From Psococerastis gibbosa (Eukaryota; Arthropoda; Insecta; Psocodea; Psocidae), in the NCBI GenBank assembly GCA_963971405.1, contig OZ020484.1, positions 18,414,001 to 18,478,000 of the forward strand: DNA of 64,000 bases, written 5' to 3'. The position numbers and the translations under genes are program-made. Every line of letters begins with the position of its first letter. Position 1 is the first letter of the stretch. Shown piece by piece: positions 9,504 through 59,575 of the stretch. The notes beneath the pieces are model-generated. The model saw only the letters and a list, made by a program, of their open reading frames with translations. It searched no databases and was not told the origin of the DNA.

Positions 9504-9924
9504 ACCTTTAAAATAAATAAAAAATAAAAAAGTAGGTTAATTGTAAAATTCTTTCTTTCTTTAGTAATGCATGTATACAGTAATAATATTTATATTGAAT
9601 TAGATATTGAAAAAAACCGTTTACTAGGAGGGTTTGGTTTAAGTGCCAACTTATGTTGTATTTGTGAAAAATTGTAATTTCTACACTAAACTAGCGTATT
9701 GGTTGTATCTGAAATGTGTTGAAGTATTGGAACTTAAACTACTGTATAGTTGTAGCCCGACAACGCAAGCCAGAGGACTGGTATAGGAACCACTTTCTTG
9801 ACCACTGCCTTTTTTTAAGAAGGATCTGGTCATCAAAGTGGTTGGTACAAGCATAGAAAAACTGATTAAGAATAGAGTATCCTTGTAAGAGTTTCCTTGG
9901 TGACTTCGTGGAACTTGGAGAACA

Positions 9925-10030
9925 TCATGAGTAGAGGAAGAAGAACGCAATGATCCACAGTAAAATACTTTAATAGTGACCGGTTTCGGATAAAATCCAT
10001 CATCAGACTAACAACACATGAAAAAACGCC
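9925..10030. repeat. left arm of perfect 106-bp inverted repeat
   Basis: Starts TCATGAGTAGAGGAAGAAG and ends CATGAAAAAACGCC. It is the exact reverse complement of 10588-10693. The minus strand carries a hammerhead-like motif at 9974-10010. Confidence 0.95.
9974..10010 (-). ncRNA. hammerhead-like self-cleaving ribozyme, left arm
   Basis: Reverse-complement copy of the motif at 10608-10644, with the same core (CTGATGA, GAAA, GGTC) and helices. It would be active only in an antisense transcript of the element. See the right-arm entry for the helix description. Confidence 0.6.
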
Positions 10031-10031
10031 T

Positions 10032-10577
10032 TGTCCTGCGTACGTTACCAACGTTACCAAGGAGAACAAGCAGTATGCCAAGATCCCGTTCATAGGAGAA
10101 GTCAGCATGAAAGTAGGAAGACTAATAACCCGAACCACTAACAAAGTTGTATCCTTTAGCTGCCCGCCCAACTTAGGAAAATTCCTCATCAACTGTAAGG
10201 ATAAGGTTAATAATAATAGGAAATCAGGGGTTTATAAAATTTCTTGTAATGAATGTAGTGCGAGTTACATTGGACAGAGTGGACGCAATTTTAAGTTTCG
10301 CTTACGTGAGCATAAAAATGCGATCGGTAAAAATGACTGTACCTCAGCTTTTGCGGACCACCTCTCAAGTAACTCGCACTCATGTAATTTTGAAGATTTT
10401 AAAATTCTACATTGTTGTAATAAAGGTAGACTATTAGACAGGTTAGAAAGCTTAGAGATTAGAAAGGCTATTAGGAATAACGAGGTTCTCACGAACGATA
10501 TAATGTTTCAAACTGTATCCCCACTACTCGATTTATGTACTCAACCCCCGCCTCCACCTCCCACTCCCTTCCCGTAG
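10032..10577 (+). CDS. Penelope-like GIY-YIG endonuclease domain, partial
   Basis: This is the C-terminal nuclease part of a Penelope-like polyprotein; it would nick target DNA to prime reverse transcription. The frame is open from 9954 through the left arm with no true start, and stops at 10577. The first in-frame Met is at 10107. Numbering from that Met: GVY 41-43 and YIG 54-56 are the two halves of the GIY-YIG signature, Arg60 lies in the QSGR stretch, and LREHK covers 66-70. Cys47, Cys50, His85 and His91 match the CCHH pattern seen in endonucleases of this family. A LESLEI segment near 113 could supply the catalytic Glu. The tail is proline-rich (about eight Pro). There are no internal stops. 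The reverse transcriptase is absent, so the element cannot move alone. Confidence 0.85.
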   Translation, partial: CPAYVTNVTKENKQYAKIPFIGEVSMKVGRLITRTTNKVVSFSCPPNLGKFLINCKDKVNNNRKSGVYKISCNECSASYIGQSGRNFKFRLREHKNAIGKNDCTSAFADHLSSNSHSCNFEDFKILHCCNKGRLLDRLESLEIRKAIRNNEVLTNDIMFQTVSPLLDLCTQPPPPPPTPFP

Positions 10578-10587
10578 TATATAAGCT

Positions 10588-10693
10588 GGCGTTTTTTCAT
10601 GTGTTGTTAGTCTGATGATGGATTTTATCCGAAACCGGTCACTATTAAAGTATTTTACTGTGGATCATTGCGTTCTTCTTCCTCTACTCATGA
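10588..10693. repeat. right arm of perfect 106-bp inverted repeat
   Basis: Exact reverse complement of 9925-10030. It begins GGCGTTTTTTCATGTGTTG, ten bases after the endonuclease stop codon. Transcripts crossing both arms could fold into a 106-bp hairpin with a loop of about 560 bases. Confidence 0.95.
10608..10644 (+). ncRNA. hammerhead-like self-cleaving ribozyme, right arm
   Basis: Core CTGATGA at 10612-10618. Stem II is GGAT/ATCC (10620-10623 and 10627-10630) with a TTT loop, then GAAA at 10631-10634. The palindromic CCGG gives a very short helix III, then TC with predicted cleavage after C10640. Stem I pairs TAGT (10608-10611) with ACTA (10641-10644). One extra T at 10619 lies between the core and stem II, a departure from the textbook consensus. 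Hammerheads with tiny helix III are known in Penelope-like elements and can act as dimers. Activity is inferred, not shown. Confidence 0.65.
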
Positions 10694-10704
10694 AGAATAG
10701 AGTA

Positions 10705-59210: not shown

Positions 59211-59361
59211 AGGACTGAAAGCTAAATCCATCTCTACCAGCCATTTTGCCTAAGCCTGGTTGTCGAGTTCCTTACCATTATGTTCACGACTTGTCACACC
59301 AAGAAAACTTTCCAATGAAATTATTATAAGAATTTACCAACAAATACAAAAATAATGAAGA

Positions 59362-59575
59362 ATCAGTAGAATCCGGGCTGATGGGCCGTGGTCGAAATGA
59401 AAGCGAACTTCCAAACGTTTCGTCAACATCTGCGGTCGACATCTTCAGGGGAACTGCGTAGACTTCCAAGATACAATCTTAGAAGTCTACGTCAACGTTT
59501 GGAAGTTCGCTTTCCTTTCGACCACGGCCCATCAGCCCGGATTCTACTGATTCTTCATTTGACTCCGGCCGTGAA
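59362..59575. mobile_element. Penelope-like terminal palindrome (family P2)
   Basis: CAGTAGAATCCGGGCTGATG at left is inverted as CATCAGCCCGGATTCTACTG at right. The arms include GGGCCGTGGTCGAAA and GCGAACTTCCAAACG, about 60 bp with few changes. The right end is followed by ACTCCGGCCGTGAAAGCC. The left arm carries a hammerhead-like motif. No coding region lies between. Confidence 0.75.
59409..59453 (-). ncRNA. hammerhead-like motif in P2 terminus
   Basis: The minus strand reads CTGAAGA, one extra T, stem II GTCGAC/GTTGAC with loop CGCAGAT, then GAAA and CGTT. Palindromic ACGT would be a minimal helix III with cleavage after GTT. TTCC and GGAA form most of stem I, with a C/T mismatch next to the core. 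The layout is the same as 10608-10644 though the sequences differ. Probably weakened. Confidence 0.5.

Follow-up and report, generated by a model that had tools for sequence, protein, structure and literature searches.

A minimal type I hammerhead motif with one extra core nucleotide in the pseudo-LTRs of a 5'-truncated Penelope-like element

Is the hammerhead-like block that occurs on both strands of a small insertion in the window (the whole stretch of DNA that was analyzed, 64 kb in length) a ribozyme, and, if so, what is the significance of the single nucleotide by which its core departs from the canonical form? The initial annotation had drawn the core elements (CTGATGA, GAAA, and TC before the cut) and three helices by hand, and all of these could indeed be located at positions 10608 to 10644. 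The coordinates of these and the other features discussed below are collected in Table 1.

Layout of the motif and of the insertion that carries it

The order of the elements is that of a type I hammerhead, with CUGANGA, GAAA, a UH cleavage site, and three helices, of which helix I is open; beyond the four pairs of helix I listed in Table 1, a T.T mismatch is followed by three more possible pairs. T 10639 takes the place of U16.1 and C 10640 that of C17, and cleavage would be expected directly after the latter. In the minus-strand copy, the core starts at 10006 and runs down, with cleavage expected after 9978. Helix III is, as originally proposed, the palindrome ACCGGT, and in the window motif it is available only as one pair or in trans. 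Because one extra U breaks the canonical rule that nothing stands between A9 and the first pair of stem II, we file the motif under the hammerhead variants of Penelope-like elements (PLEs), and not under canonical type I, although a viroid exception to that rule is known. The viroid in question, CChMVd, reportedly carries an extra A at this place, whereas the PLE motif carries a U, and we know of no ORF associated with the viroid hammerhead. The reduced, palindromic helix III agrees with the dimer-type hammerheads of PLEs, as does the location in the pseudo-LTR (pLTR) of an element encoding both a reverse transcriptase (RT) and a GIY-YIG domain, where the RT part of that location rests on relatives with RVT_1 and the window copy itself offers a pLTR and a GIY-YIG fragment.

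Table 1. Positions, in the window, of the hammerhead motifs and of the parts of the surrounding insertion
Feature	Positions	Strand	Remark
Left target-site duplication AAGAATAGAGTA, 12 bp	9868..9879		exact direct repeat
PLE "tail," 45-bp extension of the inverted pLTR	9880..9924	-	ends ~120 nt past the ribozyme AUG
Inverted pLTR arm with minus-strand hammerhead	9925..10030	-	100% complementary to 10588-10693
C-terminal PLE ORF fragment with GIY-YIG endonuclease domain	10041..10577	+	PF01541, E 5.7e-5
ATG-started ORF within the C-terminal fragment	10107..10577	+	
Downstream pLTR arm, 106 nt	10588..10693	+	100% complementary to 9925-10030
Minimal type I hammerhead with one extra base	10604..10648	+	motif reading, descriptor match, between-family covariation
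Helix I, TAGT / ACTA	10608..10611 / 10641..10644	+	
Core CTGATGA	10612..10618	+	
AUG (A9, extra U, first G of stem II)	10618..10620	+	mirror copy at 10000-9998 (-)
Extra core nucleotide U	10619..10619	+	between A9 and first stem II pair
Stem II, GGAT / ATCC	10620..10623 / 10627..10630	+	loop TTT
Core GAAA	10631..10634	+	
Helix III palindrome ACCGGT	10634..10639	+	includes CCGG at 10635-10638
Right target-site duplication AAGAATAGAGTA, 12 bp	10693..10704		exact direct repeat
Second PLE-type hammerhead family, head-to-head inverted pair	59354..59559		66-nt arms, 98% complementary

A descriptor that allowed 0 to 2 extra nucleotides and demanded a stem II of ≥4 bp, a palindromic helix III, and a helix I of ≥4 bp matched only the two arm sites in the 64-kb window, and only 1 of 300 dinucleotide-shuffled versions of the window contained a match. 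Library searches added little: Rfam 15 at its gathering thresholds gave no match in the window; at an E value of ≤10, the short stretches around the motif produced no hammerhead family, and the few matches returned were weak and unrelated. ARAGORN found no tRNA, Pfam contained no match for two other ORFs of the window, and a PDB sequence search returned one, nonsignificant match.

The motif lies in a single insertion (9868 to 10704) that consists, in this order, of a target-site duplication, a tail, an inverted arm, a coding fragment, a second arm, and the target-site duplication again. The duplicated 12-mer occurs, on either strand, at these two places only in the 64-kb window, and the first base of its right copy doubles as the last base of the right arm (10693). 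The suggestion that the inverted arms would place one copy of the motif on each strand was borne out, the 106-nt arm having an exact minus-strand counterpart. The coding fragment has at least 151 matches genome-wide (150 scored of 2664 candidates); in a profile search, the window copy was found to code for GIY-YIG only, without RT. Both domains were above the cutoff in the ORF of a related family (family G), as a GIY-YIG domain fused to RT, and the ORF of another (family B) contained RVT_1 plus a subthreshold GIY-YIG. Inverted pLTRs, a tail (as described for PLEs in PMC3846280), and a short target-site duplication are hallmarks of PLEs; together with the GIY-YIG fragment, they identify the segment as a 5'-truncated PLE and thereby place the hammerhead in a PLE pLTR. 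A TATATAA-like stretch was observed approximately 25 to 30 nt 5' of the ribozyme in the window family (family A; at ~10578-10585) and in family B (locus L122).

The extra T had also been noticed in a second family, near 59409, and there, too, the observation stands: the minus-strand core, CTGAAGA at 59448, is likewise followed by an extra T, with helix III as ACGT and an AUG at the same place. Stem II of this 59448 family (GTCGA/TTGAC) does not begin with GG, so that the family falls outside the GG..CC genome pattern counts given below.

Genome-wide copies and paired changes between families

In the 409-Mb assembly (68 contigs), at least 121 matches to the window element were found (40 scored of 904 candidates), and 37 regions covering such matches were compared with the window copy. 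The family A sample comprised 55 full ribozyme spans, 29 of them identical to the window copy. Mean divergence was 1.8% in the ribozyme and equally 1.8% in the remainder of the arm, so that in family A the ribozyme was not seen to be more strongly conserved than the arm around it. This family is young, and because ribozyme and remaining arm diverge equally, no selection on the ribozyme is visible at that age. Divergence inside the family is also too small for a search for compensatory changes to be informative.

Counts of simple patterns show how widespread the extra base is. The genome contains 1313 matches (667+646) to a pattern in which CTGANGA and a GG..CC stem II are separated by exactly one base, against 5 for the reversed pattern; with that base fixed as T, 1265 matches remained (645+620), against 1. 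The pattern without an extra base matched 19 times (2 reversed), and 14 of these matches were one sequence, CTGATGAGGGTATCTTACC, that reparses as having one extra G, leaving 5. Two extra bases gave 570 matches (3 reversed), and this form was considered as a common one but rejected: roughly nine-tenths of 100 rows listed, as estimated by eye, shared a GGGAGT/ACTCCC stem II that parses with one extra T, although a few of the rows among the matches listed do parse with two. All of these matches are copy counts, not independent events, and the independent evidence on the extra base lies in the one-extra-base and no-extra-base counts. One extra core base is, then, the prevailing form in this genome and not a peculiarity of two copies, and the extra U is common to the PLE hammerhead families sampled in it. 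At two loci, L071 and L078 (1494-1554), we observed two family B cores on opposite strands, 6 nt apart and with overlapping helix I strands (G000:C1:2135723-2135776 and G000:C1:3975568-3975621).

A collection of viral contigs was searched as well. With the ORF as the query, 5 stretches carrying the pattern were obtained from this collection, none of them a relative. Patterns with one, zero, and two extra bases yielded 8, 3, and 4 stretches, few and mixed, with L002 and L003 appearing in two of the lists. The single match to the CCGG pattern (L001) was located inside a viral contig ORF and was taken as chance. One viral contig, L006, contains two hammerhead-like motifs with a T after CTGATGA, at 1446 and 921 (-), approximately 525 nt apart.

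Compensatory changes among genomic copies had been set beforehand as a test of the fold, and they were found between families, in both stem II and helix I. From the sampled loci, 73 distinct motif rows were collected, two of which were unrelated chance rows. Of the 73, 71 parse with one extra base, a proportion that is not independent evidence, because most loci had been selected either with the one-extra-base pattern or for their similarity to family A. Helix III is palindromic in 54 of the 73 rows (ACCGGT in 31, ACGT in 15, and ACAGCTGT in 8) and is not in the remaining 19; family G has the palindrome AGCGCT. In a set of 63 rows, the figure was 53, a value biased upward by the omission of rows with a helix III that matched neither a palindrome nor a near-palindrome, so that 54 of 73 is the fairer one. 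For these 63 rows, 235 of the 252 cells of stem II were paired, compared with a shuffled mean of 168.5, and for helix I the number was 161 of 252, compared with 130.4; none of 1000 shuffles reached either level.

A separate alignment of 14 chosen rows, nearly all of the CCGG-like class, had a covariation score of 0.368, compared to 0.165 after shuffling (0 of 500 shuffles as high) and at most 0.176 when the frame was slid. The percentage paired (82.5 versus 71.3) and the number of doubly changed cells (25 versus 12.3) also beat 500 of 500 shuffles. Two further measures on these rows were unexceptional, namely, the number of pairs with a double change (7 versus 5.6; 39 of 500 shuffles as high) and that of further pair types (13 versus 12.3; 222 of 500). 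The alignment thus displays the covariation of a type I hammerhead, with three of five measures exceeding all 500 shuffles. Since kin sequences can beat shuffles without any structure, the slid control carries more weight, as do the kinds of change, namely, U-A to C-G at helix I and A-U, U-A, and C-G at stem II. The stems, in short, stay paired through changes, and the palindrome is mostly kept while its sequence changes.

Three readings other than a working ribozyme can be weighed against these data. The first, a chance resemblance to a hammerhead, would draw on the shortness of the motif and on the viral match within an ORF that looks like just such a chance event; given one matching shuffle in 300, the 1313 genomic matches against 5, and the covariation, it can be considered extremely improbable. 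The second takes the block to be a site that the PLE protein recognizes, as DNA or as RNA, or a promoter initiator, and not a ribozyme at all. It would account for the TATATAA-like stretch upstream, and TCACT, the cleavage-site sequence here, is Inr-like in a rotifer pLTR, for which a TATA element is also reported (PMC3846280); recognition alone, however, would leave unexplained that stem II and helix I, around CUGANGA and GAAA, change in pairs, and we regard this reading as improbable. According to the third, the ribozyme is an inert passenger, copied along with the pLTR and intact only through the youth of its copies. That ribozyme and remaining arm have diverged equally in family A is consistent with this, as is the 5' truncation of the window copy, and for the related ribozyme of the element PAc, cleavage was reported to be dispensable for insertion in vitro, with ribozyme mutants inserting normally (PMC11167929). 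The compensatory changes and the palindromes that change between families suggest, on the other hand, long-term selection on the fold, and we therefore hold an inert passenger to be rather unlikely.

The motif is, in our view, very probably the minimal type I hammerhead of the pLTR of a 5'-truncated PLE, most likely working in the way that has been suggested for other PLEs. Within one molecule, ACCGGU can form no more than one A-U pair closing a 4-nt loop, so that helix III would close poorly there; two motifs, in trans or belonging to tandem pLTRs of the same transcript, would instead pair via the palindrome. By precedent, motifs paired in this way would cut after C10640, and cleavage would trim multimeric PLE transcripts. 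The truncated window copy encodes no reverse transcriptase, for which reason its own ribozyme would be at most the passenger of a read-through transcript. This reading fits a kind of motif already described, i.e., the published PLE hammerheads, which are proposed to cleave as dimers (PMC7761336, PMC7229834, PMC6466107, and PMC6155905). Structure prediction counts against it, if not decisively: the single-stranded RNA showed no excess of stability (z = +0.37; 115 of 200 shuffled versions were as stable or more so), and its predicted fold is not a hammerhead, since the CUG of the core is paired to the CGG in the palindrome and G12 is taken up by the extra U. For two strands, the prediction (-17.3 kcal/mol) combined an ACCGGU/ACCGGU trans helix with a competing hairpin, without the hammerhead stems. 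Also counting against it are the equal divergence of ribozyme and arm in family A, the two unexceptional covariation measures, the published behavior of PAc RNA (described below), and the full-length copies of family G, which carry a U at A6. Less expected than the ribozyme itself is that the extra base also forms an ATG, which is the ORF start in an intact related element.

The AUG in the ribozyme core

Together with A9 and the first G of stem II, the extra U spells AUG. In the window family, this AUG has an A at -3 and a G at +4; elsewhere, family G has a U at -3 and the 59448 family a U at +4. From the AUG of the minus arm of the window copy, the frame is open for 40 codons, to the end of the tail, and the resulting 40-codon peptide has at least 150 matching places in the genome (150 scored of 1107 candidates).

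The frame can be followed further in two related families. In a family B copy on contig C1 (L122), it runs from the AUG through the ribozyme, the pLTR, and the tail into the PLE ORF, for at least 236 codons, with an in-frame stop 12 codons 5' of the AUG; a second copy (L130) agrees. Neither of these family B copies is intact: at L122, the long frame is broken, with open frames of 273 aa (N-terminal match) and 608 aa (C-terminal match). A hammerhead is located just 3' of a family B ORF with RVT_1. In three of the six family G places (L123, L125, and L129), the AUG directly follows an in-frame UAG, and the next 53 codons are open, a stretch expected by chance with a probability of 0.019 on the basis of composition (the other frames contain 6 and 3 stops). 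At L126 and L127, the upstream sequence is different, and L128, the sixth place, shares the start but contains changes and a stop. Locus L131, which extends the L123 place, contains an intact 923-codon ORF (18-2789) that begins at the ribozyme AUG and encodes RVT_1 (E 2.1e-13) and GIY-YIG (E 4.9e-5). A second, identical hammerhead-bearing direct repeat follows this ORF (at 2888; 74 identical bases to the end of the locus); L131 thus has the layout pLTR-ORF-pLTR, and the start of its ORF lies within the ribozyme. The ribozyme AUG, then, opens real ORFs in families B and G, in which it may be the main start, an alternative start, or an upstream AUG.

These ORFs raise the possibility that A9-U-G10.1 serves as a start codon and that the extra U is retained for this reason, with the core of the ribozyme doubling as the initiation site of the PLE ORF. 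Cleavage after approximately codon 8 would detach the AUG from the remaining message, which would make cleaved and translated RNAs mutually exclusive. The intact family G ORF, opened by an AUG behind an in-frame UAG and flanked by hammerhead-bearing direct repeats, argues for this reading, as do the stop-free first 53 codons of that family, the family B frame with its upstream stop, and the presence of a T in 1265 of the 1313 genomic matches. Moreover, the ORF of PAc (Poseidon, from Anolis carolinensis) reportedly opens where stem II starts, the same place as the family G AUG (PMC11167929).

Several observations speak against it. Families C and D keep the U, yet a stop occurs within 27 codons in 12 of the 13 rows examined (at codon 3 in four of six family D rows); in families E and F, five of eight rows are open for at least 29 codons. 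Between families A and B, pN/pS over all 40 codons was 0.88. Constraint at the protein level from codon 1 onward was weakened as an idea by codons 1 to 27, with a pN of 0.32 exceeding a pS of 0.22, i.e., no protein-level constraint, whereas codons 28 to 40 had a pN of 0.25 and a pS of 0.57 (few sites in both cases); visible constraint therefore begins at a downstream Met pair, which could be the real start. In family B, the first in-frame AUG is found one codon earlier (A6-U7-G8), out-of-frame AUGs are present at -10 and -43, the +2 frame likewise lacks a stop over 27 codons, and the long frame is broken. We also considered that copies without the T might be rescued by a T at N7, which creates the upstream A6-U7-G8 AUG, and rejected this: N7 is other than T in approximately a quarter (by eye) of the ~100 rows listed of the 1313 and in 15 of the 48 non-T copies, so that no such rescue effect is apparent, and the non-T copies are not confined to N7=T. 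Finally, family G, with its intact ORF, has the core CTGTAGA in its full-length copies, and because U replaces the normally conserved A6, its ribozyme may itself be weak, although stem II is intact and helix I has four pairs. Possibly, L131 (12-2789; G000:C1:40671440-40674400), and also L125 and L129, represent a recently amplified element with an altered or dying ribozyme.

On balance, retention of the U for the sake of a start codon is possible but less likely than not. With much the same reserve, we put forward the more general proposal that PLE hammerheads have, as their extra core nucleotide, the U of the start codon of the element itself, that cleavage strips off the AUG, and that each RNA would thus be either translated or processed. 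A limited search of the literature, which covered neither Cervera and De la Pena 2014 nor Lunse et al. 2017, found nothing on the extra U as part of an AUG.

Relation to known hammerhead systems

What PLE hammerheads do is described as a mystery in a review (PMC7761336). The approximately 1300 copies described here come from several families with compensatory changes, palindromes of varying sequence, and a single predominant extra base, and they offer useful natural material on which dimer cleavage can be put to the test. If the extra U does belong to a start codon, the departure of the PLE core from the canonical form would be explained, and a choice between translation and cleavage could be tested directly.

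The closest known relatives are the small hammerhead variants of PLEs, i.e., minimal type I motifs in pLTRs with a diminished helix III and a proposed cleavage as dimers, all as found here (PMC7761336 and PMC6466107). No difference was seen from those variants as reviews render them (Cervera and De la Pena 2014; Lunse, Weinberg and Breaker 2017). The satellite hammerheads of newt and axolotl share a one-pair helix III with a palindromic tetraloop, as well as dimer cleavage, which is proposed for the motif described here; they differ in having contacts between loop I and loop II and in being part of tandem retrozymes, whereas the window element is a single inverted pair with an ORF fragment and its stem II has a 3-nt loop (PMC7229834). 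For an extra nucleotide in a hammerhead core, the title of De la Pena and Flores 2001, as cited in PMC4918200, provides a viroid precedent.

With respect to architecture, the Penelope elements of Adineta vaga also comprise 5'-truncated copies, inverted pLTRs, a tail, a target-site duplication, and a pLTR with the first codons, and the available part of PMC3846280 mentions no ribozyme in them. PAc, compared here on the basis of its published description, also has its hammerhead at the start of the ORF (PMC11167929, as for all statements on PAc below). The PAc RNA, carrying a related PLE ribozyme, remained uncleaved without its protein, and protein-assisted cleavage has been shown, whereas cleavage in the window family is a prediction; RNA sequencing revealed no reads that end at the PAc cleavage site. 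The PAc tail is found at the start of the RT, 111 to 118 bp into the ORF, and the window tail ends approximately 120 nt after the AUG. The PAc cut site lies 26 bp after the start codon, compared to predicted distances of 20 nt in the window family and 26 in the 59448 family.
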